55,326 nt of DNA from an uncultured Methylococcaceae bacterium (GTDB lineage Bacteria; Pseudomonadota; Gammaproteobacteria; Methylococcales; Methylococcaceae). Each line of letters opens with the position of its first letter. The first letter of the stretch is position 1. The notes under the pieces are model-generated. The model was not told the origin of the DNA. It made no database searches and was given only the letters and a program-made list of their open reading frames with translations. This document shows, in pieces, positions 3,659 to 34,751 of the stretch. The DNA is taken from positions 1 to 55,326 of the forward strand of contig CAIODU010000113.1 in the NCBI GenBank assembly GCA_903857165.1, in the 5' to 3' direction. The position numbers were made by a program, and so were the translations under genes.

Positions 3659-4555
3659 TCAACCGATAATATCGGTCAGTGCGCGGCCAAGGTCAGGATA
3701 GCGAAACTCGAATCCAGCTTCCTGCAACCGTTTGGGGATCGCCCTTTGACCTTCCAGCAGCAATTGCCCCATCTCGCCCATCGCCGCCTTCAGCAGGAAT
3801 GCAGGGACGAAAAAGAATGCCGGTCTGTTGAGTGCCTTGGCCAAACCGGCGGTGAACTCACGATTGGTGACGGGGTTGGGTGAAACGCCGTTGAACACAC
3901 CGCTTAATTCCGGGTTTTCCAGCAGCAATTCAATCATGGCGATCAAATCAGCGCAATGAATCCACGGCATCCATTGTCGCCCGTCCCCTATCCTCGCGCC
4001 CAACCCGAAACGGAACGAAGGCAGCATACTCTTCAACATACCGCCATGAGACATCAGTACAAGGCCAAACCGGACAATGCAAAGCCTCACGCCATATTCC
4101 TCCACCCTGCTCGCGGCTTTTTCCCAGCCATCGCAGAGAGTATGCGCAAAGCCGCCCGCACCAGGGCTGTCCTCGTCAATGACGTCGTCGCCACCGTTGC
4201 CGTAGAAGCCCACGGCGGAAGTGTTGATCAACACTTGAGGCTTTATTTCCGCCCTACTGATGAAATCCACCAGTTGCCCAGTTAAGGTGACGCGACTGTC
4301 CCAAAGTATTTTCTTTCTGGTTGCGGTCCAGTACGGCCCGATGACAGCCTCTCCCGCTAGGTTGATCACGGCATCGAAGCGTGCCGATGCGGGCAAATCC
4401 GCTAGCGAAGAGAGGGCGGCTATGCCTTCGCCGCAGATTGCCTTGACCTTCTCGGGCCTACGGCTCAATACCGTCAGCCCGTGGCCCTTTTCTTTCAATG
4501 TCCTGCATAACACGCGGCCGATTGAGCCTGTTCCGCCAGTGATTAATATATCCAT
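3659..4555 (-). CDS. TIGR01777-family epimerase/oxidoreductase (YfcH-like)
   Basis: A 298-residue NAD(P)-binding Rossmann protein of the extended SDR superfamily. The N-terminal nucleotide-binding motif is ITGGTGSIGR. Further family landmarks are the SAVGFYG segment (about 113-119), WMPWIHCADLI (about 195-205), and a C-terminal DUF1731-type region (FVPAFLLKAAMGEMGQLLLE) ending near DLGRALTDIIG. Length and all landmarks match the family, close to E. coli YfcH. The substrate is unknown for the whole family. It is upstream of the Tim44-like gene on the same strand. Confidence 0.93.
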   Translation of the reverse strand: MDILITGGTGSIGRVLCRTLKEKGHGLTVLSRRPEKVKAICGEGIAALSSLADLPASARFDAVINLAGEAVIGPYWTATRKKILWDSRVTLTGQLVDFISRAEIKPQVLINTSAVGFYGNGGDDVIDEDSPGAGGFAHTLCDGWEKAASRVEEYGVRLCIVRFGLVLMSHGGMLKSMLPSFRFGLGARIGDGRQWMPWIHCADLIAMIELLLENPELSGVFNGVSPNPVTNREFTAGLAKALNRPAFFFVPAFLLKAAMGEMGQLLLEGQRAIPKRLQEAGFEFRYPDLGRALTDIIG

Positions 4556-4823
4556 GTTTTATCTCGATGAGTGGCAAACACCGCCAAAGGCGGGCTTTAT
4601 TTCAATTGTATGGCCAACTGCCCTGTTTCCAAGGCAGGAAGGCCCGCGAAATCGCTCTGTTGCGAGAATAGACAGGCCTCGCCCGGGTTTATATCCCCAA
4701 ACCCCTCACAAATCCCTCGCAGCAAGGAACATCCAGAAGGCCAAACCCGCAGCCAAGAAGCCTCCCGCCAGCGACCAGGAAACCGGGATCTCGAAATTTT
4801 CAAACAGGAAAAAATAGCTTATC

Positions 4824-4916
4824 TTAGGTTGGGAACCATTGCATCGCCCGCTTGAAAAGAAAAAAACAGAATTCCAATAACAGCAGAACCAAGACGACAT
4901 CCAGCACTTTGCGCAC
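4824..4916 (-). CDS. Small single-helix membrane peptide (30 aa)
   Basis: A GTG-started 30-codon frame preceded at good spacing by GAAGGGGG. The peptide has a basic start (MRKVLD), one hydrophobic helix (VVLVLLLLEFCFFLF) and a KRAMQWFPT tail, the usual plan of small inner-membrane proteins. Immediately downstream, in another frame and ending at 4706, is a second hydrophobic stretch (VSWSLAGGFLAAGLAFWMF) with no good start codon. It could be a second small protein or the frame-shifted remainder of one gene. No family recognised. Confidence 0.4.
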   Translation of the reverse strand: MRKVLDVVLVLLLLEFCFFLFKRAMQWFPT

Positions 4917-5193
4917 AGCAACCCCCTTCGTTGAAAATTGTGCCGCCATTATAACCCGAAGCGCGATAGGCCCATGAATTTCCGTATTATTGTCGGCGAA
5001 GTAGGCGTAAAATAAGCCTCGACGGGAAAATCCAATAAAATTTTCTCACTGGCAATCAATCTGTGAATAGGCCATTTTTCAAGCACGCTTGCCAGTCTTG
5101 CGAAAGTTTAAGACTGTTTCCCTTGACTCAACCCACCCTTCTATATTAAATGCCCGCATATCCACCAAAACAACGCAACCACTGACATGTATC

Positions 5194-5628
5194 ATGCATA
5201 AGGAATCTTTCAACTGGCTAGGCTTCTTCATTCGCTTGCTTTTCGCCTTGGTGCTGGTTTACGCAACCTATAATCCTGAGGGCTATTCCTATTTTCACTG
5301 GATTCAAGCCAGCTTGAACCATCGGGAAACCGGCCTGTTCGGTTCGGATGCCTTAAAGTTTGTGGCTGGCATCCTCCTGCTGGCGGGGTGGCTCATCTTT
5401 GTCAATGCCACCCGCGACTCCTTGGGGTTCGTAGGCATTTGCCTGATCTTGGCCTTGTGCGGTGGATTGATCTGGCTGGCTGCCGACATGGGCTTGTTTG
5501 AACCTACCAATGTGAGGCTAATCGAACATCTAACGGAAATAGTGGTAGCCATTATTCTTGCCTTTGGCATGTCCTGGTCCCACATTCACCGCCGCCTGAC
5601 CGGGCAGGTCGACATTGACACCCGGTAA
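5194..5628 (+). CDS. DUF6524 family inner-membrane protein
   Basis: I start the protein at the ATG at 5194 (MHKESFNWLGFFIRL), because the upstream in-frame stretch has no family character and reads as leader DNA. The 144-residue product has four predicted membrane helices: LLFALVLVYATYNPEGYSYFH, FVAGILLLAGWLIFV, LGFVGICLILALCGGLIWL and IVVAIILAFGMSWSHIH. The YATYNPxGYSYFHW segment is characteristic of the DUF6524 family, whose function is unknown. It is a stand-alone gene 85 bp before a secreted unknown on the same strand. Confidence 0.85.
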   Translation: MHKESFNWLGFFIRLLFALVLVYATYNPEGYSYFHWIQASLNHRETGLFGSDALKFVAGILLLAGWLIFVNATRDSLGFVGICLILALCGGLIWLAADMGLFEPTNVRLIEHLTEIVVAIILAFGMSWSHIHRRLTGQVDIDTR

Positions 5629-5713
5629 GGCGGCTCGTTTGCCCGTGCCCCATTGATCACGGGATTTAATCCTAGGCTCCGCCTATTTTAAAATTCATAC
5701 TTGAGGAAACAAT

Positions 5714-6403
5714 ATGTTGAAATTGACCACACGCTCCATTCCCTGCGTCACCCCGGCACTGTTGGCGATGACTTTGATGGGCTTCGCACCCTTAAGCTGG
5801 GCGGAAACTCAGCCAGTGGCGCAAGAACACAAAGATGTCCCGGTCGTGTCCGATGTCGCCGAACAGAAGATCATAGAACACATGATGGAAGCCAGCTTGG
5901 GTCGGCTTAAAGGTTGGCCCGGCATGATTTTTTATTGCCCCGCCGAGGAATCCAAATCAACCGCATTGAAACAAATTTGCCAAGACAGTTATAAAAACTT
6001 GGAAGCCTTGTCGGTGCAACACAACGTCAAGTTCCACAAGGCCCGCAACGCCAACGACGTTGCCTTGTTGCCCCATCTGACCGGCAGGTTGAAAGTCATT
6101 ATTGATGTCGTCGGCACCGAACCGGGCGTCGAACCATCGGCAATCTCCGCCCGCATCAGTGTGCTGGCCCACTATGCCCACGCGGTCAATCGGGCCACCG
6201 AAATTGCCGCCCCACAAGATTCCAGCCAGCCCAAACACCCCACTAGCATTCCCCAACATGTGGATGCCGTTCTATGGGAAAGCACGGTGGTCAAAGCCGG
6301 AACGGGCGGTCAGGATGCCTTGGCGCAGCCGGTGGCCCAGGAGATCAACGAAAGGCTGAAGACTTTCTTCGCCGATTACGACAAGGCCAACAAATTGCCT
6401 TAG
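5714..6403 (+). CDS. Secreted/periplasmic protein of unknown function
   Basis: A 229-residue protein preceded by GAGGAAAC, with an N-terminal signal peptide (LLAMTLMGFAPLSWAE, cleavage near residue 30). The mature part has two cysteines (FYCPAEE and KQICQDSY), enough for one disulfide. It also has a mixed alpha/beta-looking stretch (GRLKVIIDVVGTE, ISARISVLAHYAHAV) and ends in a charged helix (INERLKTFFADYDKANKLP). I do not recognise a family. It could be co-transcribed with the DUF6524 gene just upstream. Confidence 0.75.
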   Translation: MLKLTTRSIPCVTPALLAMTLMGFAPLSWAETQPVAQEHKDVPVVSDVAEQKIIEHMMEASLGRLKGWPGMIFYCPAEESKSTALKQICQDSYKNLEALSVQHNVKFHKARNANDVALLPHLTGRLKVIIDVVGTEPGVEPSAISARISVLAHYAHAVNRATEIAAPQDSSQPKHPTSIPQHVDAVLWESTVVKAGTGGQDALAQPVAQEINERLKTFFADYDKANKLP

Positions 6404-6488
6404 TCGGTTTGGCCTGGGGCGGGGGTTCTTGAAGGATCGGCCCCAACCTAACGCAGACTAGGATCGCCCAAGGGATATGTGGCGGGAT

Positions 6489-6513
6489 CGGCCCGGTCAT
6501 CAAGACCGGGCCG
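6489..6513 (+). terminator. Hairpin downstream of the secreted unknown
   Basis: A perfect 10-bp stem (cGGCCCGGTC / GACCGGGCCg) with loop ATCAA, 85 bp after the stop codon. No clear T-run follows, so it may be a weak terminator or just a palindromic repeat. The rest of 6404-6663 shows nothing else I can call. Confidence 0.35.
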
Positions 6514-6663
6514 GTCCGGGTATCCGTTTCCGCCGTTTCACCCTTGCGGCGAGTATATTTCTCGAAATGTCAAAATCATCCATGCCCTAAACTGATACCA
6601 TAACCGCTGTTATGCAGCGTTTACCTGTGCGCCACCCACTTAATCATTCCAGGAGAAACCGAT

Positions 6664-8046
6664 TTGAAGCAGGCGTTGGAAATTGATACCCCGATGACAC
6701 GCACTGAATTGCGTGCCAGCCTTTCCCTCGCCGGGATTTACATGCTCCGAATGCTGGGGCTGTTCATGATCCTGCCGGTTTTTTCAATCTATGCCCGCGA
6801 ATTGGAAGGTTCCACCCCTTTCCTGATCGGACTCGCCATCAGTGCCTATGGGCTGACCCAGGCACTGCTCGGCATACCTTACGGGCTTTGGTCCGATCAT
6901 GTGGGCAGAAAGAAGGTCATCGCCTTCGGCCTGCTCGTCTTCGCCCTCGGCAGCGTGGTCGCCGCATTGGCCGACTCCATCTGGGGCGTCATCCTAGGCC
7001 GCTCCATCCAAGGCGCAGGCGCGGTGGCTTCCGTGGTCATGGCCTTGGCCGCCGACCTGACCCGCGAGGAACACCGCACTAAAGCCATGGCCCTGATCGG
7101 CATTAGCATCGGCATCTCCTTCGCCGTCTCCATGGTTGCCGGGCCGATCCTGGAAGGCTTGATTGGCGTGAAAGGCATTTTCTGGATTATTGCCGGTCTC
7201 GCGCTCACTGGCATCGCCGTGCTTTACCTGGTAGTGCCCACGCCTGTCATCAGCCGCTTCCACCGTGATGCCGAGGCGCAACCGGCACAATTTGGCAAAG
7301 TATTGAAAAACCCTGAATTGCTGCGGCTTGATTTCGGCATATTTTCCCTTCATGCGATTTTGACTGCCACTTTTGTGGTCATTCCGCTGGTGCTGCGTGA
7401 CACCGTGCAATTGGCAACCGCCGACCACTGGAAGGTTTACTTGCCGGTGTTCCTTCTATCCCTGTTTGCGATGGTGCCATTTGTGATTTTGGCGGAAAAG
7501 AAACGCAAGATGAAAGCCGTGTTCGTTGCTTTCATCATTGTCATCGCAATCGCCGATGCCGGTCTGTTTGTCAATGCCAACAATGTCTACGCCATTGGTT
7601 TCCTGCTCTTCGTGTTCTTCACTGGCTTCAACCTGCTGGAAGCGACACTGCCTTCGATGATTTCCAAAGTCGCCCCTTCTGAATTGAAAGGCACGGCGAT
7701 GGGTGTCTATTCCGCCGCGCAGTTTCTCGGCGCCTTCGTCGGCGGAGTCAGTGGCGGCATTATCTACGGTGCTTTAGGCAAGCCTGTCGTGTTCGCCTTC
7801 TGCGCCATTATTGCCTCGGTTTGGGCCTTGGTGGCCCTGCGCATGGCCCCGCCACGGCATCTCAGCTCCCTGTTAATCAACTTCGGCAACTTGACCGTAA
7901 ATGAAGCCATTGCAATGTCGGCCAAACTTCGCCTAGTCCCCGGCGTTATCGAAGCGGTGGTATTGGCTGATGACGGGGTGGCTTATTTAAAAGTGGAAAA
8001 GGACAAACTGGATAAGGTGGCGCTGGAGGGGTTGTTGCCGGAGTGA
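6664..8046 (+). CDS. YajR-like MFS transporter with C-terminal YAM domain
   Basis: A 460-residue inner-membrane transporter. The TTG start is chosen because AGGAGAAACC sits seven bases upstream; an internal ATG at 6694 is the alternative. Twelve hydrophobic helices are visible. The MFS signature between helices 2 and 3 is GLWSDHVGRKK, and ADLTREEHRTKAMALIG follows, both close to E. coli YajR. After the last helix (about residue 395) comes a soluble ferredoxin-like tail (INFGNLTVNEAIAMSAKL, GVIEAVVLADDGVAYLKVEK) matching the YAM domain of YajR. The substrate is unknown; drug or metabolite efflux is only inferred from the family. Confidence 0.92.
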   Translation: MKQALEIDTPMTRTELRASLSLAGIYMLRMLGLFMILPVFSIYARELEGSTPFLIGLAISAYGLTQALLGIPYGLWSDHVGRKKVIAFGLLVFALGSVVAALADSIWGVILGRSIQGAGAVASVVMALAADLTREEHRTKAMALIGISIGISFAVSMVAGPILEGLIGVKGIFWIIAGLALTGIAVLYLVVPTPVISRFHRDAEAQPAQFGKVLKNPELLRLDFGIFSLHAILTATFVVIPLVLRDTVQLATADHWKVYLPVFLLSLFAMVPFVILAEKKRKMKAVFVAFIIVIAIADAGLFVNANNVYAIGFLLFVFFTGFNLLEATLPSMISKVAPSELKGTAMGVYSAAQFLGAFVGGVSGGIIYGALGKPVVFAFCAIIASVWALVALRMAPPRHLSSLLINFGNLTVNEAIAMSAKLRLVPGVIEAVVLADDGVAYLKVEKDKLDKVALEGLLPE

Positions 8047-8088
8047 GCGATAACGCACGACTTGATTAGAAAGATGTCGCAGCTATTC

Positions 8089-8119
8089 CGTCATTCCGGC
8101 ATGGATCGCCGGAATCCAG
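8089..8119. repeat. Family B repeat, end fragment
   Basis: One palindromic end (ATTCCGGCATGGAT-CGCCGGAAT) of the family B element seen in full at 17013, 23719 and 33636. The inner part continues for a short way (CCAAGGACGG) and is then replaced by the DUF29 scrap. Confidence 0.7.
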
Positions 8120-8140
8120 CGTCCAAGGACGGCAAACTTT

Positions 8141-8221
8141 GACAAAAAAACGTTCCCGCCATCCTGCCCCTATTCGACAGAGGAATTGTTTGATATGGGT
8201 TTTTATCCAGATGGGTCTTGA
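8141..8221 (+). pseudogene. Remnant of a DUF29 gene (3' end only)
   Basis: These 81 bp align without gaps to the last 81 bp of the intact DUF29 gene (9373-9453), with about ten substitutions. They keep its reading frame (FPPSCPYSTEELFDMGFYP) and end in the same TGA stop. The rest of this gene copy is absent, and the upstream side is a repeat fragment. The VapBC-like pair therefore lies between a DUF29 remnant and an intact DUF29 gene. Confidence 0.85.
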
Positions 8222-8283
8222 ATCTAACTTTCGCAAAGTCTATCCTGAACACATCACCGTTAGCTATCAAGGAAACCAGCCCA

Positions 8284-8535
8284 ATGTTGCAGGCCGTTGA
8301 AGCCATTCTGGAACCCTCTGGCGAAGTTCGCTTGTTGGAGAACATTCGCGTCACCGCACCCACGCGGGTTGTCGTCACTGTCATCGAAACCGCCAGTACT
8401 ATAGAGCCTACCGGACAAGGCGACATAAAATCCCTGCTTGAATTCCTGAGCGGGAATCGCCTTCCCAAGCAATGCCGCTTAAGCGCCGAGGAAATAGACG
8501 CCCAAGTTGAGGCGGAGCGTAACGCATGGGAATGA
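8284..8535 (+). CDS. Putative antitoxin of a PIN-domain TA pair
   Basis: An 83-residue protein started at the ATG at 8284, which has AAGGA upstream. The N-terminal half (MLQAVEAILEPSGEVRLLEN, then RVVVTVIE) looks like the swapped-hairpin beta fold of small antitoxins related to DUF104/AbrB-type proteins. The C-terminal half is an acidic helix (SAEEIDAQVEAERNAWE), as in antitoxins that wrap around a PIN toxin. Its stop overlaps the start of the PIN toxin gene. It should neutralise that toxin and repress the operon; this is inferred from context. Confidence 0.75.
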   Translation: MLQAVEAILEPSGEVRLLENIRVTAPTRVVVTVIETASTIEPTGQGDIKSLLEFLSGNRLPKQCRLSAEEIDAQVEAERNAWE

Positions 8536-8954
8536 AGCCATTGATATATCTCGATACCTGTATCGTGATTTACTTGGTCGAGGAGCATCCAATATATCAG
8601 CCTACCATTGAAGCTGTTTTGTCAGATAGCTTTGGTGTGGTTTGCCATAGTCCATTGGTGGAGTTGGAGGCATTGGTATTGCCCCTGCGCCTTGAACGCA
8701 ATGACCTATTGGCAAAATTTCGTATATTTTTCTCGATTAACCGCAGCTTGCATATGCCGTATGAGGTTTTTCAACACGCTGCCGAATTGCGTGCCCGGTT
8801 TTCGCTAAAAACTCCCGATGCACTGCATCTAGGCACTGCCCAATATCATGGTTGCACCGAATTTTGGACAAACGATGACCGCTTGCGAAATGTTGCTGGA
8901 AGTCTTGCGGTCAATGTGTGTGGTGGTATGAGCAAGACAACTTTGTCTTCCTAA
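8526..8954 (+). CDS. PIN-domain toxin (VapC-like ribonuclease)
   Basis: A 142-residue PIN nuclease. The acidic residues expected for metal binding are in place: the first Asp in LIYLDTCIVIY near the N-terminus, Glu in VELEAL, the Asp of LKTPDALHLGTA, and the last Asp pair in WTNDDRLR. Two in-frame ATGs are possible (8526 and 8532); the second forms an ATGA overlap with the antitoxin stop, indicating translational coupling. Family members cut RNA, often tRNA, when freed from the antitoxin. It is probably functional, because no key residue is missing. Confidence 0.88.
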   Translation: MGMKPLIYLDTCIVIYLVEEHPIYQPTIEAVLSDSFGVVCHSPLVELEALVLPLRLERNDLLAKFRIFFSINRSLHMPYEVFQHAAELRARFSLKTPDALHLGTAQYHGCTEFWTNDDRLRNVAGSLAVNVCGGMSKTTLSS

Positions 8955-9012
8955 TCATCAACACCGAAAATGCACTGCAAACACGATGCAAATCCAACAA
9001 AACGGGTAAGAT

Positions 9013-9453
9013 ATGGCCGCAAACCTACACGACAAAGACTTCCACGCTTGGGCCATCGAACAAGCAAACTTGCTGAAAGCCGGAAAATTGGGCGAGATCG
9101 ACTTGGATAACCTGATTGAGGAAATCGAAAGCATGGGGGCCAGTGAGCGAAACCAGTTGCAGAACCGGCTCAAGGTGCTGATAGGCCATCTGTTGAAGTG
9201 GCAATTCCAACCGGCCTACCGGTCCAGAAGCTGGAATGCAACCATCGAAGAGCAAAGGCTTTCGGTCATCGGCCTGATCGAAGACAACCCAAGCCTAAAA
9301 AGCATTTTGGAAGAGCGCATAGCCAAGGCTTACCCCCAAGGCGTGTTGCTGGCGGTCAAAGAAACCAACCTGGACAAGAAGACCTTCCCGCCATCCTGCC
9401 CCTACTCGGCAGAGGAATTGTTTGACATTGGCTTTTATCCAGATGGGTATTGA
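9013..9453 (+). CDS. DUF29 family protein
   Basis: A 146-residue protein opening with the DUF29 hallmark: LHDKDFHAWAIEQANLLKAG, then the acidic DNLIEEIESMG. A segment rich in aromatic and basic residues follows (HLLKWQFQPAYRSRSWNATI), and it ends near SAEELFDIGFYPDGY. Length and landmarks match the family. DUF29 proteins are common in cyanobacteria and methanotrophs and are often found near TA genes, but their function is unknown. A remnant of a second copy lies at 8141-8221. Confidence 0.9.
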   Translation: MAANLHDKDFHAWAIEQANLLKAGKLGEIDLDNLIEEIESMGASERNQLQNRLKVLIGHLLKWQFQPAYRSRSWNATIEEQRLSVIGLIEDNPSLKSILEERIAKAYPQGVLLAVKETNLDKKTFPPSCPYSAEELFDIGFYPDGY

Positions 9454-9480
9454 GGAGTTTATGCAAGAGCATCAATGGCA

Positions 9481-9562
9481 TTTTAGCGTTATGCGCCGTA
9501 TGGATAAGGTAATCAATCATTCGGCGGAATATGCTAAATCGCTATTTCGCACTACGCGGGCT
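9481..9562. repeat. Direct repeat C1 flanking the HEPN-motif gene
   Basis: This segment (TAGCGTTATGCGCCGTATGG, GCGGAATATGCTAAATCGCT, ACGCGGGCT) resembles 10654-10732 in the same orientation, with scattered substitutions. The two copies bracket the AT-rich gene at 9633-10589. Repeats of this look (GCGTAATGCGCC / GGCGGAATA) are dispersed palindromic elements. Confidence 0.7.
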
Positions 9563-9632
9563 ACGATTACGCCTTACCTCGTTGACTAATTAATTTTTTT
9601 AAATCGTCTAACAAAGCACTCACTTCTGATAT

Positions 9633-10589
9633 ATGACAGACTACATCGCCCGCTTTATTATTACATTAAAACAAGCTATATCCACATCAGAAGATTCGCT
9701 CCAAGAGTTAAAAATAAATCCAACTCTAGGATACATTAATAGCATCAAAATAACACCCTTTATTGATCAATCAAAACTACTCTCTAAACTGTATATAGAA
9801 GCCATCTATTCCAGTGATGATATTTATCACTTATGCAATGGTTGGGGCGATAACCTAAATCCACAAGATGGAATTTACGTCATTCAGCCAGTAAATGGAT
9901 GTTTAATGTATTTAGTCCCACCATGGGATATTACTGAAATACTGATAATGCCGTTGCTTAACTACATCTCAGCACTCACCCTGCAAGCTCATGTCTACTG
10001 GGATATGCGAGAAAACCTACAGAAATATATTTCTGATTTCACTTGGATACTTCCAGATGGAACCGAAGCACCACCCGTTCCCAACCAATACCCAAGACTC
10101 ATATCTGTCCGATCCCCTGAACTATTAGGCCGACCGATTAACGCATCCGACTGGCAACTGATACAAGACAAATATAATGGAAATAACCAAGAATTACCAC
10201 TCTGGCGAGTCATCCTAGCCTATGCTCACCGCGAACAAGAAAACTCTATTAGAAACACAGTTGTCCAATGCGCTACTGCATTAGATGTAGGTATTCAATC
10301 TCAACTTCCAAATACAATTAATTTTGATATGCGTGTACTCAATGGATATTTTAAAAATAAAGGAATTAGAACCCCCGATTTAAGGATAACGGATCAGGCT
10401 TTATTCAACACTTTAAGTCAGCTTTGGTATACGAGACATTCAATCATCCATAAAGGTGAAGCTATGATATATGACAGAAATCCTCAAAGTGGTGGTCAGC
10501 CAATACGTCCTCTTCAAGCCCAAGATACAACAGAATATCTCAAAGCTGTCCCTAAAGGAATAGAATATGTCGAGAATAATCCACCATAA
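9633..10589 (+). CDS. AT-rich gene of unknown function with a HEPN-like Rx4H motif
   Basis: A 318-residue protein with no family I can name. The DNA is plainly more AT-rich than its neighbours and uses many AAT, ATA and TTA codons, a sign of recent transfer. The N-terminal 200 residues are mixed alpha/beta. The C-terminal third is helical: a long helix (YAHREQENSIRNTVVQCATALDVG), then LFNTLSQLWYTRHSIIHKGE. The RHSIIH segment fits the R-x4-6-H active-site motif of HEPN ribonucleases, in the right helical setting near the end of the domain. HEPN proteins often act as RNases in TA and anti-phage systems; no antitoxin partner is adjacent. Similar DNA repeats lie on both sides. Confidence 0.6.
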   Translation: MTDYIARFIITLKQAISTSEDSLQELKINPTLGYINSIKITPFIDQSKLLSKLYIEAIYSSDDIYHLCNGWGDNLNPQDGIYVIQPVNGCLMYLVPPWDITEILIMPLLNYISALTLQAHVYWDMRENLQKYISDFTWILPDGTEAPPVPNQYPRLISVRSPELLGRPINASDWQLIQDKYNGNNQELPLWRVILAYAHREQENSIRNTVVQCATALDVGIQSQLPNTINFDMRVLNGYFKNKGIRTPDLRITDQALFNTLSQLWYTRHSIIHKGEAMIYDRNPQSGGQPIRPLQAQDTTEYLKAVPKGIEYVENNPP

Positions 10590-10653
10590 TTTCATCAAAA
10601 ATTTCTATTATTATGGCTTTGCAAGCCATGTAGGGCCGTAGGGCGCATTAGCG

Positions 10654-10732
10654 TTTTAGCGTAATGCGCCGTATGTATCGGTAGTCATTCGCGGCGGAAT
10701 ATGTTAAAACGCTATTCTGCCCTACACGGGCT
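10654..10732. repeat. Direct repeat C2 flanking the HEPN-motif gene
   Basis: Partner of the repeat at 9481-9562, same orientation (TAGCGTAATGCGCCGTATGT, GCGGAATATGTTAAAACGCT, ACACGGGCT). The surrounding 10590-10886 holds only this element and a short leader for the next gene. Confidence 0.7.
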
Positions 10733-10886
10733 GGAATATTGGGCAACTGCGCCTATGCCCAACCCATGAAGCTAAGATGAAAAATCTGATTATATGCCAG
10801 AAATACAACCGAGCGTGGCACATATCGCGCACCTAATTACTGCCTTTACCCCAAAGTTGGAAATGACTCAAATCGGGAGATTCTCC

Positions 10887-11147
10887 ATGGCAACTTTAGT
10901 ATTAAACGATATATCCGATAATCTTTACCAGCGGCTTGGAACGCTCGCGGAAGCGCACCGCCAATCCGTAAACCAAGAAGCGATGAATGTGCTGGAAGCC
11001 GCCCTTGCACCACTAGACGATATGCCTAAACCTAGCGTGGAAGAAACCCTAGACTGGCTGCGCCGGGAAGTATGGACATTGCCGATGTTGGATAATCGCA
11101 ATTCCGATGAGATCATAGGTTACAATGAACATGGACTATTCGATTGA
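10887..11147 (+). CDS. FitA-type antitoxin, apparently without its toxin
   Basis: An 86-residue protein started at the ATG at 10887, preceded by GGGAG. The N-terminus (MATLVLNDISDNLYQRLGTL, then HRQSVNQEAMNVLEAAL) is the ribbon-helix-helix DNA-binding fold of FitA-like antitoxins. The C-terminal part should bind a PIN toxin. The expected FitB-like PIN gene is missing: a 71-codon frame that overlaps the end soon becomes the palindromic repeat at 11170-11238. It is therefore probably an orphan antitoxin left after loss of the toxin. Confidence 0.78.
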   Translation: MATLVLNDISDNLYQRLGTLAEAHRQSVNQEAMNVLEAALAPLDDMPKPSVEETLDWLRREVWTLPMLDNRNSDEIIGYNEHGLFD

Positions 11148-11559
11148 TTTGGATGGCTTCAAAAGAAGGTCTCATGCAACGCCGCAAAGGCGCAACGTAA
11201 AGCGGTTCTTCGTTACGCCTTTGCGTCGTTGCGTGAAACCTCTTCTTGCTGTTCGTGTGGTGAGATGCCCGCACTCCAAGGGTTTGCGCCAAAATGAAAA
11301 TTGCTGGCTGTTGCCCGATCTTGGCTCAAAACATTTATAATTGAATAAAATTCAACCTATGCCGACCATACTTGTCCTTCTCTTGTGGAGATCATATTTG
11401 AACATTTTGATTACATTGTTAACCAGTGGCAAGAACAAAAAAGGGGTTGACTATGAATAGACTTTATCGGAAACCATTTTCTGATGCAGCAATGTCTCGA
11501 TGTTTAACAAGGTTTCGATAAAGCCTAACGACTAAAACTCAATTTACCGGAGTGACGCG
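11148..11559. other. Gene-poor stretch with a large palindrome
   Basis: No gene that I can support. It carries an imperfect inverted repeat (arms about 11170-11197 and 11211-11238, around CAACGCCGCAAAGGCG / CGCCTTTGCGTCGTTG), where a FitB-type toxin gene would be expected. A 22-codon frame at 11453-11521 has AAGGGG upstream but nothing else in its favour. Confidence 0.5.
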
Positions 11560-11817
11560 ATGTCAACTACACTGTCCATTGAAATACCCTGCGAAATCGC
11601 CCATGCAGCGAAAATGACACCGGATGAATTGCGCCGGGAATTGGCTATACATTTGTTTAGCGTCCATAAACTGTCCTTTGGCAAGGCTAGGGAAATGGCC
11701 GGAATGACGGTTTGCTCATTTCAACAACTGTTGGGAAGCCGGGAGATTTCACCGCACTATGACATTTCCGAGTACGAAGAAGACTTGGCAACATTGTCCA
11801 GGCTAGACCGGATATGA
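11560..11817 (+). CDS. UPF0175 family antitoxin
   Basis: An 85-residue protein with the UPF0175 layout: a short beta N-terminus (LSIEIPCEIAH), a helix (TPDELRRELAIHLFSVHKLSF), the helix-turn-helix-like GKAREMAGMTVCSFQQLLGS, and an acidic tail (DISEYEEDLATLSRLD). Members pair with DUF3368 PIN-domain proteins, and the next gene is exactly that, overlapping by four bases (ATGA). A 41-bp piece of this gene is repeated downstream of the toxin at 12318-12358. Confidence 0.87.
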   Translation: MSTTLSIEIPCEIAHAAKMTPDELRRELAIHLFSVHKLSFGKAREMAGMTVCSFQQLLGSREISPHYDISEYEEDLATLSRLDRI

Positions 11818-20121: not shown

Positions 20122-22365
20122 TCAAAGGGAAAATGTCCTGGCAAGACGAAAGCCGAAATCGTAGTTGCGGTAGTCAGGCGTGCCCCTGCTGCGGGAAGCC
20201 GAACGCACGGCCTGAGTTTCGCCGTTCCACGAGCCACCGCGCAACACCCGGCTAACATTGGAACCGGCCTCGCTGGCTTGCCGTTCAGCGCCGCCATATT
20301 GCCCGTCATAGACCGAGGCGGTCCACTCCCAGACATTGCCATGCATGTCATGCAAGCCCCAAGCATTGCTCGGGAACTGGCCGACTTGCACCGTTTTTTC
20401 TCGATAAATACTTTTCTTGCCGTTGCCGTAAATGGTGTTTCCAGCGTAATTGGCTAACTCAGTGCTGATGCTTGCGCCAAAATGAAACGGCGTGGTCGTA
20501 CTGGCCCGGCAGGTATATTCCCACTCCGCTTCGGTCGGCAAGCGATACTCTTCCCCGGTCTTTGCCGATAACCAATCGGCGTAGGCGACGGCATCCTGCC
20601 AGGTTACATTGATGACGGGGTGCCGCCCCCGTCCCCAGCCTTGATCCCAGGGTTTGTACCGTCTGCTGGCATGCACAAAGCGGTCGTAGTCCTCAAAGGT
20701 GACGGCGTATTGGCCGATGGCGAAACTGGCAACTTCCACTTCATGTTGCCGTTCGTCGTTTCTTCGTCCGGCTTCATTTTCAGGCGAACCCATCAAGAAG
20801 CGACCACCGGGGATGATACTCATGACCGGACCCAAGCTGCCATCCTGCAAACGGTCGCGGAAATGCCAACCAGCCAAGCGTTCCACACTGACACCACGGA
20901 AATCCAATCGACTTATATCCGCCTTAACATTATACCGACAGTTCAAGAAAGCCAGGATTTGGTCGGTGGCGCGGAGTTTATTGCCTTGTTTCAGTGCCGG
21001 GACGGTATTCATCTGTTTGTCCAAACCCCCTGCAACCAGCGCATGGGCGACCAGAAACTCTTGGATGCTGTAATGGGCGAAGCGGTATTCACGCTGCGAA
21101 TTGCGGTTCAACAAAGACCGCCCACCGAAATCGAAATGCTCGATGTGGGCGATGGCGGGCAATGCCCCGACCAGCGAGCGCAACTGTTCTTGGGTGACGG
21201 TTTTTTCTTGCAGCCCCAAGGTCTGCATGTGCAAGGCCAGCACGGTGCATGCCGCCCACAAATCGTCTTTGCTCGGCAAAGGCTGGATGTTTTGTTGCGC
21301 CAGCTTCTTGCCTTCGCGCAGCAGCCAAGCCTCCAACAAGGCTTCATAGACGGTGTATTCGTTCCATTTCCGCTCCGAGGATTTGAGGATGTCGTCGATA
21401 TGGGCCAGCAGTAGCGGACGGAAGCGCAGGGAATGCATGGCAGCGAGAATCTCCTTGGCTTTTAGTCGGTTGGCCTTCACCTTGCCGAGGCTGAGGCTGT
21501 GCCAAGGCAGCGGGAAACGCTTGAGCAGATACTCGTCCACTTGTTTGTCATCGAACAGCGAGAGGAAAATCATCGGGCAGATGAAATTCCCCACTGCCAC
21601 CCGGCCCGGATTGCGGAACGGATCGGACCCGGTTTCCGGGAAGAACTGAGTGCGGCAGGAGATGAGGACATGGCGGAAATTCTCCGAGGCCAGCAGCAAC
21701 TCACTCAGTCGCTGCTCGAAGCGGCCCCAGGCGGTCGGGTCTTCATCCAGCGCGTCGAGCAGCAACACCGTCTTCGCCTTGTTTTGATGTAGCCGGAGCT
21801 TGTCTAGGGTGTCGGTGCCGAGTTTCAGTAACAGGCAGTCGTACTCAGGTTGCCAAAATTGGTACAGATGCACCAGCTTCAACATCATCAAAACAGAAGT
21901 CTTGCCCATGCCCGCATCGGCCAAAATGAACAGTTGATGGCCGCCATTGCGCAGGGTGATCTCCTTCTCCAGAAACTTGCTGATGTAGTCGAAAAACGGT
22001 GTCCTCAGGTCGGACCGGGCACCCTCGTCTTCATGGTAATCGGCGGGGTTGTGGTGCTGACAATTGGGGACGACGTAATATTTCGCCAGCAGTAAAGGAT
22101 CACTAAAGACATTGCCAATCTCGGCGATTTCCAGGGCCCTATCGTTGCGCCTTGCGGTCAGGCGTTTGAGCAAAGAGGGGAGGGAGTCTTTGGAAATGCC
22201 GGGCGGGGTGGGTTTGGGTGGCTTGTCCCTAATATGAAGCGCCCACCATGCCGCAACGATAGTTGAAAATCCACCACCGATTGTTTTAAGCGTTTCTTGA
22301 TTTTCAGATATGCGAAACCAATCCCAACATATATCAATTGATTTATAAACAAAGTCCAAATTCAT
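20122..22365 (-). CDS. NACHT NTPase with C-terminal FGE-sulfatase/C-type lectin domain
   Basis: A 747-residue STAND-type protein. One hydrophobic N-terminal segment (TIGGGFSTIVAAWWALHI) may anchor it in the membrane. The NACHT core has Walker A ILADAGMGKTSVLM (about 147-160) and Walker B TVLLLDALDEDP (about 197-208), then a helical arm region. From about residue 510 comes an FGE-sulfatase domain (MSIIPGGRFLMGSPENEAGR, YRLPTEAEWEY, LHDMHGNVWEW). It ends VLRGGSWNGETQAVRSASR, then GFRLARTF, the architecture of DGR variable proteins. Its C-terminal DNA does not match the template at 34261, so it is not that template's current target. It is last in an operon with two small membrane proteins. It could be a sensor in a conflict system; this is inference. 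Confidence 0.9.
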   Translation of the reverse strand: MNLDFVYKSIDICWDWFRISENQETLKTIGGGFSTIVAAWWALHIRDKPPKPTPPGISKDSLPSLLKRLTARRNDRALEIAEIGNVFSDPLLLAKYYVVPNCQHHNPADYHEDEGARSDLRTPFFDYISKFLEKEITLRNGGHQLFILADAGMGKTSVLMMLKLVHLYQFWQPEYDCLLLKLGTDTLDKLRLHQNKAKTVLLLDALDEDPTAWGRFEQRLSELLLASENFRHVLISCRTQFFPETGSDPFRNPGRVAVGNFICPMIFLSLFDDKQVDEYLLKRFPLPWHSLSLGKVKANRLKAKEILAAMHSLRFRPLLLAHIDDILKSSERKWNEYTVYEALLEAWLLREGKKLAQQNIQPLPSKDDLWAACTVLALHMQTLGLQEKTVTQEQLRSLVGALPAIAHIEHFDFGGRSLLNRNSQREYRFAHYSIQEFLVAHALVAGGLDKQMNTVPALKQGNKLRATDQILAFLNCRYNVKADISRLDFRGVSVERLAGWHFRDRLQDGSLGPVMSIIPGGRFLMGSPENEAGRRNDERQHEVEVASFAIGQYAVTFEDYDRFVHASRRYKPWDQGWGRGRHPVINVTWQDAVAYADWLSAKTGEEYRLPTEAEWEYTCRASTTTPFHFGASISTELANYAGNTIYGNGKKSIYREKTVQVGQFPSNAWGLHDMHGNVWEWTASVYDGQYGGAERQASEAGSNVSRVLRGGSWNGETQAVRSASRSRGTPDYRNYDFGFRLARTFSL

Positions 22366-29514: not shown

Positions 29515-29556
29515 GTCGGGTGCTCTTTTTCGGGGGGCAAGGTGCATTGTAATTAA

Positions 29557-29706
29557 CTGATGTTACGCATGGACCTATGGCTGGAGCGTCAAAGCTTGCT
29601 TTGACATCAAGGCGAAGCCTTGACGGATACGTTGCCAAAGCAAGCTTTGGCGCTCCAACCCCAACCCGGGCCAAAGCAAGCTTTGGCGCTCCCTGCGTAA
29701 CATCAG
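29557..29706. mobile_element. MITE-like repeat, family A copy 2 (150 bp)
   Basis: Perfect 13-bp ends CTGATGTTACGCA / TGCGTAACATCAG; flanks TAATTAA (29550-29556) and TCATTAA (29707-29713) agree in six of seven positions. The core is nearly identical to copy 1 with six extra bases. It lies immediately upstream of metH and could carry or displace its promoter. Confidence 0.9.
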
Positions 29707-29818
29707 TCATTAAAATGACATTTTAACAGGCTATTGATAAACCCCTGAATTTTTCATGCGGAGGATTCTTGAAAAATGATAGGCAGGTAATGGGGAACAT
29801 AGGGGTGGGGGAAGCCTG

Positions 29819-30187
29819 TCAACTCGGATTACGCTGCGCTTCAACCGGGCTACCCGCTGTGACATTTTTTTTCCAAGCCCCCAATAAACGGCCTATTTCT
29901 TCTAGCAAACGGCTGGCATGTTCATAGCGGCGAATGTCCAATAGTTCCAGATCATGGCTTATTCGCAAGTAAAAGCGCAATTGCTTCAATTTGACATCGG
30001 CTTGGGCGAGTGCGGCGGTTTGACTTGGCTTGTCGGTTGCGTGATAAAGACACTCCATGAAATCCATCGCCGTGGCTTGCAGACGATGCGCCAACACAAA
30101 ACGCTGTTCGCGGGGGAATTTAACGGTTTGCGGGATTAACCAGCGGATGAAGTCGTAGGATTTTGCAAACAGTGGGGATTCTTTAAG
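29819..30187 (-). pseudogene. avd: DGR accessory protein Avd, joined out of frame to the RT remnant
   Basis: From SPLFAKSYDFIRWLIPQTVK through FPREQRFVLAHRLQATAMDF, TAALAQADVKLKQLRFYLRI and YEHASRLLEEIGRLLGAWKK, this is a typical Avd four-helix-bundle protein, the partner of DGR reverse transcriptases that binds RT and RNA. The body of the protein looks complete, but its own start codon is gone. The sequence just upstream is the RT fragment in another frame, so translation would need a chance start (for example in the RT region at 30319). I treat it as non-functional or at best a fusion product. Confidence 0.85.
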
Positions 30188-30489
30188 GTATTCTCGAAAA
30201 TGGTCTCGGTCACGTTGTTCAAGGCGTGATGCACCACCCGGTCGCGGAACGGCGCGGCGGACACCAGGCGCTGCTTCGGGTCGCGGATGGCGAAGGAATG
30301 ATACGCCCCCGGTTGCCATGTTTCCGTGGTCAATTCATCTTGGAGGCGGATTAATTCATCGGCCAGATTCGTCTCGAAGCGGGCGGCGGCAGGGTTGCCG
30401 CGCTTGCCTCTCGCCGCTTTGCGCCATGCGAGGTGAAGATTGCCGAAATCGGTCAATTGCGGGAACAAATTATCGAATGATTTAGCCAT
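30136..30489 (-). pseudogene. DGR reverse transcriptase, N-terminal ~100 residues only
   Basis: From the ATG at 30489: MAKSFDNLFPQLTDFGNLHL, AWRKAARGKRGNPAAARFE, ALQ-type helix LADELIRLQDEL, PGAYHSFAIRDPKQRLVSAA, PFRDRVVHHALNN. This is the conserved beginning of DGR and related RTs, up to about 30190. The catalytic palm with the YxDD box, and everything after ETIFEN, is missing. The reading frame continues a little and stops at 30136, while the DNA continues as Avd in another frame. No Shine-Dalgarno motif precedes the ATG, which directly follows the T-run of a terminator. The enzyme cannot be active. Confidence 0.88.
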
Positions 30490-30514
30490 AAAAAAAAATC
30501 GCGACTGCTTCGCG
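30490..30514 (-). terminator. Intrinsic terminator after the DGR target gene
   Basis: On the minus strand CGCGA-AGCAG-TCGCG is followed by ATTTTTTTTT. It lies about 90 bp after the target gene's stop and directly before the RT remnant's ATG. Confidence 0.6.
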
Positions 30515-30601
30515 GTATTACAAAGAGCAAAAGAAAAAATCAAAAGCAAGAGCAGAAAACAGCAAAGCAGGAACCAGAAATCAGAAGACAGAAATCAGAA
30601 A

Positions 30602-33517
30602 TCACCAGGGAGAACCCAACGCCAAGCGAAAGCCAATATTATCGATTCGATAGTTGGGAAGGAGCCTGTTGCGGAACGCACAACGGAGATTGATAGTAGG
30701 ACTGTTCCAAGAACCGCCGCGAATAACCCGCAGCGCATGGGCTTCCAAATTGTCACGCCGGACTTCTTGGCTGTCCCAGTTTTCATACGTAAACTCCGGC
30801 GTACCTACCTTTTTACCCCATTGGCTGCTGGTCCATTCCCACACATTGCCGCTCATATCGTATAGCCTGATGCCGCTTTCTGCAAAGGATTTCCCCGGTG
30901 GGAACAAGCCGACGCTGGTCGTCCGCCGCAAACCGGTGTCTACATAATTGCCCAGAGTCGGGTCAGGTTTCTCGCCCCACGCATAAGGCAAGCCCGCCAA
31001 ACCACGCGCCGCATATTCCCATTCCGCCTCGGTCGGCACGCGAACTTTGCCGGGATAGGCTTTGGTGGCATTGAGCCAGTTACAAAACGCCAATGCCTCA
31101 TACCAACTGATGCCCACCACCGGGTGGTTGGGGTTGTTCCATTGGCGCTGCTCCCAGAACCACGGCTGGAGGCGGGTCTTCTCCTGCGCCAGCCAGTCTG
31201 CATATCGTTTTTGGTAATCAGGGTTGTCATCCAACAGGGACAAGTCGGCTTTACTGCCCCTTAGCCAGGCCAAGGCCGCAGGGGGCGAAAGCCAATACTG
31301 TTCTTCCGTATAACCGCCTGCCTCGACAAAACAGGCGAATTGGGCATTGGTGACGGGATAGCGGCTTATTTTAAATGCCTCGACCGTGACCGGATGGGCG
31401 GGTTTTTCATCGGCATAGCCTTCATCGCCTTGCGTCCCCATCAGGAAAGTATCTTTGGGGATAGTCTCCCAAACAATATCTGGTAATTCCAGCCCATCAA
31501 ATTTTTTAGGTTTGCCGTCAGCTTCCTTGATGACCGTCACGCCGGGGCGCGGGTCGCCGAGTTCGCCCAATAGCCGGCCGGCCTCGGCGCGCAATGCCAC
31601 CGGCAGGTGGAATTCATCGCCGCGCTCCACCAAGGCCAGCAGGTGTTTTTCCAAACTATCGCGTAAGCGTGTGTAAGAGGGATTGGCATAGTTTCGCAGC
31701 GGTTTTTGCTGCTCCACCGCCGCCTTCGCCGCCAAAAACATCCGCTGCCAGTCGTCTTCTGGGTAAGTGGAATAATCGGGAATGGCATCCAGCACATAAT
31801 TGAGCATCAAACCAACGGCATCCGGCTTGCTGTTGCCTTCGACCTTGGCACTGACCAATAGCAGAAACACCTGTTCCCACCATTCCCGCCCGCCCTCGCT
31901 ACGAATTAGGCGGTCAATTTGTTCCTGCCAATCGCTTTGTTCGGTGATTTCCAGCGCCGCCAGATAGTCTTGGAATGATCTGTGGTAAAACTCAAAACTA
32001 TTGCCCTGCCCAGGCTTCAGTATGCCGCTGCGATAGCGGATGAAATCCAGCAAACTCCTGGCATTGCAATCCGCCGACAGATGGACCGAAAACAAGCCCA
32101 TGATTTGGGTGTCGGATATTTGCAGGGTTTTCTTCGACGAGGCATCCAGCGCCAATTTCTGCAACGCGGTATTGCGGGTGGCGGCGGTTTCAGCCAATGC
32201 CTTGCGCTCATAATCCTCCAGCGGATAAGCCGGGTTTTCCCGGTGAATGCGCTGGGTCCAGCGTTCCAGCATCAATTCCACCGTCTCCTGATAGAGCTTT
32301 GCACGGGAATGCGGCAAGATGCCACGGACAAAGTGCAAAGAGGTGAGCAAGGTTAAAATCAGCGGACTGCGGGCCGGGTCTAGCAAATAATCGCGGTCTT
32401 GCAGTTCCACAAACAACCTATGGGCTTCTTTGGTGGATTCTTCCGGGGTCCGGTTGCGGGTCTCGCGGAGCAGCAGATACCAATGGGTGATGAAGTCTTC
32501 GACTTGCGCATTGCCCATCGGCTGCAATTCGACACAGGCCAAGCCTTGCAACCACTCTTGGTGATGCTCGAATGCGGACGGGCGGCTGGTGATGACTAAA
32601 CGGGCTTGCGGACCCAATTCCCCAAGCAGATTGTCCACGGCCTTCAACATCGCGGAGCGCAAGCCGCCGGTCTCCGGCACTTCGTCCATGCCGTCCATCA
32701 AAATGATACCCTCGCGCAGCAGCGGGGTTTTGAGGATGTTCCATAAAGCCTCACCGTTGTCCTCACCCAGCAACGCAATGATCTCTTGGCGCATGGCCTG
32801 TTGCAGAAAATCATTGGCCTTCTCTTTCCCTTGCAACAACAGGGCGACCGAGCGCAGCCTAACCCGCACCACCGGCAAACGGCGGAACTCGTTTGGTAAA
32901 CGCTCGTCCACTTGGTTTAGATGAGTGCCGGCGATTTGCCAAGCCAGATTGTCCATGAACATGCTCTTGCCCGAACCGGCATCGCCAAGGATGACCAAGC
33001 GGCGATGTTTCTCTTCGGCACAGGCGAGGGTAAGCGGCTTGCGAGCATCCCCGCGCATCCCTAAGCGGTCTGCGCCGGCTTCATCTTGTTGCCTTTGGAC
33101 GGTGACGACATCCATTTCCTGATACACCACCGGCAGGGTGAGGGAATCTCGCATATGGGTGGCAAATTCGGTGAATTTCACATCCACCAAAGACAGGTCA
33201 ATCTGCTGGCAGCTTTTGCGGAGGGCTTGGTAGTATAAAGTGCGTAGCGAGTCGGGGTCTGGGGGTTTCTTCTCGCCTTCGGTTGGGGCTGTCTCCTTGC
33301 GCTTTCCAAGCAGTTTGAGCAAACCCCAACCAACACCGAGGATAGCACCAAGTTTTTCCCCTATGGACAGCCAATCGTTCAGCTTGGCGCGGTCAGCATC
33401 AGGCCAATTCCATAATTGCGTGAGCCATTGAAGAAAATACTGGCGGAAAACCCACAGCAGGATGACGACCAAACACAGTAACAGCGGTGCTTTCAGAAGT
33501 TTAATCAGTTTGTTCAT
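30602..33517 (-). CDS. Membrane-anchored NACHT NTPase with DGR-variable FGE/lectin domain
   Basis: About 971 residues; I prefer the ATG at 33517 (MNKLIKLLKAPLLLCLVVIL), since it begins a signal-anchor helix. A TTG at 33553 is possible. After the membrane helix and linker comes the NACHT NTPase: Walker A LVILGDAGSGKSMFMDNLA (about 173-191), Walker B GIILMDGMDEVPE (about 267-279), sensor LVITSRPSAFEHH. A helical region follows, then the FGE-sulfatase (C-type-lectin-like) domain from about 685 (KDTFLMGTQGDEGYADEKPA, VRVPTEAEWEYAARG, YDMSGNVWEW). Its end, VIRGGSWNSPTINLRCAFRN then [11 protein letters not shown], is the variable repeat and ends at the stop. Likely a ligand-sensing conflict or cell-recognition protein; the ligand is unknown. 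Confidence 0.92.
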   Translation of the reverse strand: MNKLIKLLKAPLLLCLVVILLWVFRQYFLQWLTQLWNWPDADRAKLNDWLSIGEKLGAILGVGWGLLKLLGKRKETAPTEGEKKPPDPDSLRTLYYQALRKSCQQIDLSLVDVKFTEFATHMRDSLTLPVVYQEMDVVTVQRQQDEAGADRLGMRGDARKPLTLACAEEKHRRLVILGDAGSGKSMFMDNLAWQIAGTHLNQVDERLPNEFRRLPVVRVRLRSVALLLQGKEKANDFLQQAMRQEIIALLGEDNGEALWNILKTPLLREGIILMDGMDEVPETGGLRSAMLKAVDNLLGELGPQARLVITSRPSAFEHHQEWLQGLACVELQPMGNAQVEDFITHWYLLLRETRNRTPEESTKEAHRLFVELQDRDYLLDPARSPLILTLLTSLHFVRGILPHSRAKLYQETVELMLERWTQRIHRENPAYPLEDYERKALAETAATRNTALQKLALDASSKKTLQISDTQIMGLFSVHLSADCNARSLLDFIRYRSGILKPGQGNSFEFYHRSFQDYLAALEITEQSDWQEQIDRLIRSEGGREWWEQVFLLLVSAKVEGNSKPDAVGLMLNYVLDAIPDYSTYPEDDWQRMFLAAKAAVEQQKPLRNYANPSYTRLRDSLEKHLLALVERGDEFHLPVALRAEAGRLLGELGDPRPGVTVIKEADGKPKKFDGLELPDIVWETIPKDTFLMGTQGDEGYADEKPAHPVTVEAFKISRYPVTNAQFACFVEAGGYTEEQYWLSPPAALAWLRGSKADLSLLDDNPDYQKRYADWLAQEKTRLQPWFWEQRQWNNPNHPVVGISWYEALAFCNWLNATKAYPGKVRVPTEAEWEYAARGLAGLPYAWGEKPDPTLGNYVDTGLRRTTSVGLFPPGKSFAESGIRLYDMSGNVWEWTSSQWGKKVGTPEFTYENWDSQEVRRDNLEAHALRVIRGGSWNSPTINLRCAFRNRLLPNYRIDNIGFRLALGSPW
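30609..30722 (-). other. DGR variable repeat (VR)
   Basis: 114 bp at the 3' end of the NACHT-FGE gene that align without gaps to 34261-34374. Read on the coding strand, 12 of 18 differences are at template adenines (changed to T, G or C), and six are elsewhere. The last 30-plus bases before the stop (GGCTTTCGCTTGGCGTTGGG...) are identical in both, as an IMH segment should be. Confidence 0.88.
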
Positions 33518-33635
33518 GTGATATAAAGCCATAAAATCAGGAATATCCACCAACCCCTATTTTGCCATAAATAAAGACATCAAACGTAGGGTGGGCAGCA
33601 GTTCTCATTATGAGCTAAAGTGCAGATAAACAACC

Positions 33636-33774
33636 CGTCATTCCGGCATGGATGCCGGAATCCAGTCACAAGGATGTGAAACTAGGGTTCGCCACCAAGC
33701 CTTTTTCAAACATTTTAGCAACCGACAAGTTACCGTCCATGGCACTGGATTCCGGCATCCATGCCGGAATGACG
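33636..33774. repeat. Family B palindromic element, copy 2 (139 bp)
   Basis: Nearly the same as 17013-17152, including CACAAGGATGTGAA and CAAGCCTTTTTCAAAC. It is nested within a second inverted repeat (33597-33615 with 33781-33800, around TTCTCATTATG / CATAATGAGAA). Confidence 0.85.
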
Positions 33775-33952
33775 GCAATGGAGCCATAATGAGAATTGCT
33801 GGCATAAGCGGCTCTTCGTTGCGTCGTTGCGTGAGGCTTTCTTTATGCTTTGATTTTGGGGTGCGAAAATAAATCCACGCCGCCACGATAGTGCTTCAGG
33901 TCAAACTGAGAATTGCTGTAGTGTGGGGTAGGTGCCACTGCGGATGAATTAA

Positions 33953-34079
33953 CTGATGTTACGCAGGGAGCGCCAAAGCTTGCTTTGGCCCGGATTGGGG
34001 TTGGAGCGCCAAAGCTTGCTTTGGCAAGGTATCCGTCAAGGCTTCGCCTTGATGTCAAAGCAAGCTTTGACGCTCCAAT
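33953..34079. mobile_element. MITE-like repeat, family A copy 3, one end lost
   Basis: Begins CTGATGTTACGCA with core order inverted relative to copies 1 and 2 (GGAGCGCCAAAGCTTGCTTT first). At the right side the element stops after GACGCTCCAA and runs into TACAGGGTTCG without the TGCGTAACATCAG end. It lies 3' of the DGR template, where an RT gene would normally be expected. Confidence 0.85.
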
Positions 34080-34260
34080 ACAGGGTTCGTTATTAAAATC
34101 CCCGCACCGTGCCAGGCAGGATGCGGGGCAAGTTTCAGTATTGGGCCGGCTGTTTGCACAGGCGCGACCTGGGCAGGTGCAAGCTGGTTTCGGCCTTGCA
34201 CCGCCGCCGGGCATCAGTCGAGATGAGGCCGGTTTGCCGGATGCAAGCCACAGAAACTAT

Positions 34261-34374
34261 GGAGAACCCAACGCCAAGCGAAAGCCAATATTATTGTTTC
34301 GATTGTCGGGATGGTTCCTGTTGCGGATCGCACAGCGAACATTGTCTGATTGATTGTTCCAAGAACCGCCGCGA
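34261..34374 (-). other. DGR template repeat (TR)
   Basis: On the minus strand this 114-bp segment would read [20 protein letters not shown], then [13 protein letters not shown]. The run of Asn codons (AAC/AAT) is the hallmark of a DGR template, because adenines are the mutable positions. It is not in a target gene; a TAG follows the match at once. By hand count, 12 of its 28 adenines differ in the VR, against six of the other 86 bases. It is separated from the RT/Avd remnants by the whole target gene, an unusual order. Confidence 0.87.
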
Positions 34375-34526
34375 GGGTTGCGCCAACCCGGCTCTAACTC
34401 TGAGGGAAAAAAAGGCATTTTGCAAATAAATGCCCAATATCCTGTTGGTTTGCCGGAAACGCCCGCTGGAAATAGCCTTAAACCCCCTTTGCAAAGTGGG
34501 GCAATACTGTACTGTTGAATTAAAGA

Positions 34527-34656
34527 CTGATGTTACGCATGGACCTAGGCTGGAGCGTCAAAGCTTGCTTTGACTGGCAAGGCTTGCCTTGCCCCTGCCT
34601 GCCTGTCTGCGACAGGCGGTCAAAGCAAGCTTTGACGCTCCCTGCGTAACATCAGT
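34527..34656. mobile_element. MITE-like repeat, family A copy 4 (130 bp)
   Basis: Perfect 13-bp ends and a perfect 7-bp target duplication TTAAAGA (34520-34526 and 34657-34663). The core is shorter and partly replaced by TGCCTTGCCCCTGCCTGCC and GTCTGCGACAGGCGG. This copy gives the clearest proof of the element's limits. Confidence 0.92.
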
Positions 34657-34751
34657 TAAAGAGTAGGTCGGCATCCCCATGCCGACAATGAACTTGTTCT
34701 TCCCTCGGCGGCAAAGGGTTGCCGCCCTACGGATTCTAAGGGTACGGCGCA

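Follow-up and report, generated by a model that had tools for sequence, protein, structure and literature searches.

The window analysed here is the whole of contig C113 (55,326 nucleotides) from a 4.9-Mb Methylococcaceae genome (G000) assembled in 428 contigs. On its minus strand lie, in this order, the parts of a diversity-generating retroelement (DGR): a template repeat (TR), a NACHT-FGE target gene with a variable repeat (VR), a remnant of a reverse transcriptase (RT) and an Avd. The TR is 114 bp long (positions 34261-34374) and is the donor in the comparison with three VRs, which differ from it in an adenine-directed manner. The target gene (30602-33553) encodes a protein of 983 aa with N-terminal hydrophobic segments (recognised by eye), a NACHT NTPase and a C-terminal FGE-sulfatase domain, which is C-type-lectin-like and spans residues 698-978. 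The VR of the window (VR113, 30609-30722, minus strand) makes up the last codons of this gene, within the sequence for its C-type-lectin/FGE fold. None of the known defence models of PADLOC was matched by the window target. Judged by their domains, this target and the two remote ones described below are putative defence (immune) sensors. A further FGE-domain coding stretch at 20140-20826 (30% identity) has no TR-like repeat and is probably not a DGR target.

TR and VR113 were aligned by a repeat finder over 114 bp with zero gaps, and a recount agreed, as the initial annotation had proposed. Its hand count was also exact: on the coding (minus) strand, VR113 differed from the TR at 12 of the 28 template adenines and at 6 of the 86 other bases, so that 12 of 18 differences fell on adenines, and the excess was upheld by the Fisher test (p = 3.9e-5). 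The TR is Asn-rich in the target frame, and 25 of its 28 adenines occupy codon positions 1-2. The VR, said to close at the stop of an FGE/lectin domain, ends 4 bp before the stop codon of the NACHT and FGE-sulfatase protein. When VR113 instead of the TR was taken as the reference, there was no adenine excess (3/19 vs. 17/100, p = 1, counted over 119 bp), which supports transfer in the direction from TR to VR.

Considering that FGE domains are multi-copy in this genome, the pair might simply have arisen when the 3' end of a gene was duplicated and the copies diverged, with chance or composition as the source of the adenine excess. We give this explanation practically no credence. A whole-genome search found more VRs of the window TR on contigs C141 and C306, and their presence makes chance untenable for the pair. 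The VR on C141 (VR141) already refutes a simple duplication, since it differed from the TR at 19 of 28 adenines and at none of the 86 other sites (p = 3e-15); the VR on C306 (VR306) differed at 18/28 and 5/86, respectively (p = 6e-10). Differences in the three VRs of the genome therefore lie mainly at TR adenines, with p from 4e-5 to 3e-15. Moreover, the excess is directional and appears from the TR only, an Avd and an RT remnant adjoin, and the same pattern recurs in three congeners. Chance and composition were ruled out as its source by the Fisher tests together with the directionality. The remote targets are a DUF4062-NACHT-FGE protein (C141) and a DUF4062-nSTAND1-FGE protein (C306).

The orthologous loci of three congeners (G003, G004 and G005, all lake MAGs) were compared, and each has an orthologous TR. 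Several VRs per congener track the TR of their own species. Against their own TR (adenines and other sites), VRs of G004 differed at 15/30 and 0/84 and at 14/30 and 1/84, those of G005 at 15/29 and 0/85 and at 19/29 and 1/85, and those of G003 at 19/28 and 0/86 and at 21/28 and 1/86. Five other congener VRs had 6-18 non-adenine changes. Such tracking of the own-species TR at non-adenine sites gives support to mutagenic homing in the past.

The six non-adenine differences of VR113 had been ascribed in the initial annotation to later drift between TR and VR. We found that they are mostly not random or independent, as five of the six are common to congener TRs or the third VR. VR113 has A at positions 26 and 68, like all three congener TRs; at position 35 it agrees with the TRs of G005 and G003, and at position 40 with that of G005. 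The non-adenine states 35C, 37C and 40T are common to VR113 and the unlinked VR306. VR141, on the other hand, shows no difference from the present TR outside the adenines (86 sites). With positions 26, 35, 37, 40 and 68 reset to the older state, the counts became 12/30 and 1/84 for VR113 and 20/30 and 1/84 for VR306, although the five sites were chosen after the data had been seen, and p values after the reset are descriptive only. Because the states of VR113 match those of congener TRs and VR306, the simplest reading is that the TR was altered after the last rewriting of VR113 and VR306, and that VR141 would have been rewritten after this change. A second TR, since lost, is a possible alternative source of the states shared by VR113 and VR306.

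The TR probably belongs to an RNA unit of its own (34100-34390, minus strand), consisting of ~16 nt on the 5' side, the TR and a 3' spacer of ~160 nt closed by a GC hairpin (CCCCGCA..TGCGGGG); its transcription is presumed. The unit is conserved as a block in four species, its outer flanks are not conserved, and G004 has an insertion inside it. This conservation fits a separate TR RNA. Searches of Rfam returned only sub-threshold matches, on palindromic repeats outside the TR. A sigma-70 promoter scan found none near the TR on the TR strand, and its matches were fewer than in shuffles. Several repeats surround these elements. A MITE-like palindrome with ACTGATGTTACGCA ends lies at 29548-29711; a MITE-like repeat at 33949-34077 adjoins the TR spacer and is 98% complementary to 29582-29707; and another palindrome of this type is found on the other side of the TR (34526-34659). 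The ACTGATGTTACGCA end of these palindromes has 166 exact copies in the genome. A palindromic CCGTCATTCCGGCATGGATGCCGGAATCCAG repeat pair is located at 33635-33775, and similar repeats occur near the C141 and C306 targets.

The RT is present as a remnant of residues 1 to ~101 (30185-30489, minus strand), 87% identical to the intact G005 RT over residues 1-102. The catalytic core (GLPIGNLTSQ, YVDD) is absent, so that the window lacks a DGR-type RT with catalytic YxDD and the motif GxxxSQ, while the orthologous loci of G004 and G005 have a full RT with both, as well as an Avd. At the deletion junction (30184/30185), 768-774 bp are missing relative to G004 and G005, with CTT shared at the break; the lost stretch begins at RT codon ~101, reaches into the very start of the Avd gene and leaves the RT fused out of frame to Avd. 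The Avd, a four-helix accessory protein (29846-30184, minus strand), matched Avd families, among them NF033474 with 105 bits (cut-off 80). Its own start codon is lost, and its open frame runs upstream into the out-of-frame RT. Among solved structures, the best match of the RT was 8ub7 and that of Avd was 4dwl (BPP-1 Avd). We therefore class the locus in the window as a degenerate and incomplete DGR. The DGR first proposed here is borne out by the adenine-specific differences, the Avd, the FGE target, the RT remnant and the intact orthologues of congeners; the locus itself is not intact, as the RT is deleted after residue ~101.

The deletion could be an error of the assembly or a structural variant confined to a minority, with an intact RT in most cells. 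The assembly is fragmented, the G004 and G005 orthologues are intact, and intact and RT-less variants coexist in aggregates of Thiohalocapsa sp. PB-PSB1 (PMC10907252). However, the junction is internal to a contig of 55 kb, the sequence on either side of it is homologous to the orthologues, and the rest of the RT is on no other contig. G003, moreover, has lost another stretch: about 1.17 kb are deleted in frame between RT residue 47 and Avd residue 76, which indicates recurrent loss at this locus. We therefore regard an artefact or minority variant as unlikely and favour a real deletion. The frames of the RT and Avd remnants are still open, and the RT remnant branch has 12 synonymous and 12 nonsynonymous changes, compared with a neutral expectation of about 26% synonymous. 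The open frames and the excess of silent changes support a recent RT loss but do not give it an age, as part of the scored branch is older than the deletion.

No second full RT of the window class was found in the 428 contigs of its own assembly, in which residues 1-102 are all that exists of the class RT. Elsewhere in the genome, the RT-like matches were an intact RT on C314 (54% identity), a truncated one on C114, a stop-containing piece on C3 and, more distant, one on C146. The C314 locus (L012, C314:8000-27000, positions 3794-11726) is a second DGR with an open RT. It comprises a MoxR-like AAA ATPase, an FGE target with VR, a TR, a divergent Avd and RT, and a second FGE target, in a neighbourhood resembling a ternary conflict system. 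Considering that this locus has an open RT and an Avd, and that trans diversification within a class was reported for Thiohalocapsa PB-PSB1 (PMC10907252), the window TR and its VRs might still be active, with the intact RT-Avd of C314 acting on them in trans. This seems rather improbable to us. C314 represents a different class, the two TRs align over ~84 bp only and not into the 3' spacer, the C314 VRs carry a different 3' block, and C314 has two targets of its own. Traces of other elements were seen as well. On C114 (L015, 263-1519), a DGR-like RT is truncated after the YCDD region and runs in frame into a piece of a CbbQ/MoxR-type ATPase at the contig start. At G000:C3:1595-1768, an RT N-terminal piece with one internal TGA is probably another dead DGR. 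On C166 (L017, 4680-5034), an Avd-like frame at the contig end is apparently frameshifted and probably a remnant of a further DGR; it was rejected as part of the window class, as the frame is broken and no evidence ties it to that class.

Immediately 3' of VR113 lies a class-specific pyrimidine-rich tract of 72 bp (VR-3' block, 30537-30608, minus strand), which is a candidate target-recognition element. Among the three unlinked targets its identity was 90-92%. The same targets had 52-55% identity over the 450 bp upstream of the VR and, more than 100 bp downstream, where short stretches could be aligned, 58-66%, little above random (random 72-bp pairs averaged 45% identity, maximum 57%). The 24-nt core of the block (≤2 mismatches) occurred 15 times in 4 of the 7 genomes searched, and the reversed control not at all. 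For 14 of the 15 copies, the distance to the preceding VR is 14-21 nt; the remaining one, at the start of a contig, comes after the final 26 bp of a VR. No copy away from a VR was found in the seven genomes. The two C314 targets have a common, different block in the same place. A BPP-1-like 3' hairpin, i.e., a GC-rich stem of 7-10 bp with a 4-nt GRNA loop 4-34 bp after the VR (PMC3240598), was not found; the window class has a stem of 5 bp only, ~95 bp after the VR and behind the conserved tract.

Two explanations of the block were considered. It may be a mere transcription terminator or a duplicated gene end with no part in homing, for which we see a chance somewhat short of even. The block closes in a short GC hairpin and T-run that is terminator-like (CGCGAAGCAGTCGCG-T9, 30491-30514, minus strand), and it could have travelled with targets spread by duplication. 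Terminator-like matches in the region were no commoner than in shuffles. Against a terminator or a duplicated end stand the 90-92% identity of the block beside strongly diverged upstream and near-random downstream sequences, the lack of any core copy away from a VR, and the TR, which has no block and so could not renew it. Alternatively, the block may be a sequence-specific address, such that any gene end with it becomes a legitimate remote target of the TR. We propose this tentatively, as possible rather than probable; a role in target recognition would be analogous to that of the BPP-1 3' element and to a suggestion made for cyanobacteria. If real, such an address would account for the use of one template by unlinked defence sensors with diverged flanks.

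Taken together, we hypothesize that this is a cellular DGR that has lost its RT: three targets were rewritten in the past, and a deletion of ~770 bp came later (probability roughly 0.85). This is the best explanation of what stands in the sequence itself, namely the repeats, the adenine bias, the remote VRs, the RT deletion and the intact orthologues. By analogy with BPP-1 and its relatives, from which the copying mechanism is inferred, RNA from the stand-alone TR unit would have been copied by an RT-Avd complex with errors at adenines. The cDNA would then have taken the place of the VR, both in the linked NACHT-FGE gene and in at least two unlinked ones, each time at the 3' end, and the ligand-binding face of these putative defence sensors would have changed with it. 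The deletion would subsequently have removed the RT core, leaving the TR, the Avd and the three targets, with no RT of the class in the assembly. Homing has presumably stopped, and the system looks recently frozen. An intact RT could nevertheless fall into a gap of the assembly or be carried by other members of the population.

None of the papers searched linked DGRs to Methylococcaceae. The present locus would extend the hypermutation of NACHT/STAND sensor proteins, seen in other bacteria, to lake Methylococcaceae. The four-species series, in which the locus is intact twice and RT-deleted twice in different ways, makes it possible to ask how fast template and targets drift after homing stops, and the conserved block beside every VR is a concrete, testable candidate for remote-target recognition. 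As in Bordetella phage BPP-1, which provides the nearest solved structures of RT and Avd, the transfer from TR to VR is adenine-directed and an element lies just 3' of the VR (PMC3240598). In contrast to BPP-1, the host is cellular, the target is a NACHT-FGE protein and not the phage Mtd, several targets are unlinked, and the 3' element is a long sequence-conserved tract, not a 24-bp hairpin element. Cyanobacterial DGRs likewise act on remote targets, which are CLec proteins with the VR at the 3' end of the gene, and shared cis elements near the 3' end were suggested there (PMC7517822); in the part of that study used here no explicit shared tract appears, and the present host belongs to a methanotroph family. 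The closest description is that of Thiohalocapsa sp. PB-PSB1 (Dore et al. 2024), which has clade 5 RTs, several DGR classes per genome and NACHT and nSTAND1-FGE targets, and for which RT-less degenerate loci and MITE-like repeats were already reported (PMC10907252). All these features except the RT clade recur here, together with remote targets and, at another locus, MoxR-ATPase neighbours; the likeness to clade 5 is one of targets and organisation, not of placement in an RT tree. Unlike here, every class in PB-PSB1 keeps one complete locus, whereas the window class has none in the assembly, and the window TR is found upstream of the target at a distance of about 3.8 kb from the RT. Beyond what was described for PB-PSB1, the window shows a whole class left without an RT in its assembly and offers a better-defined candidate target address.
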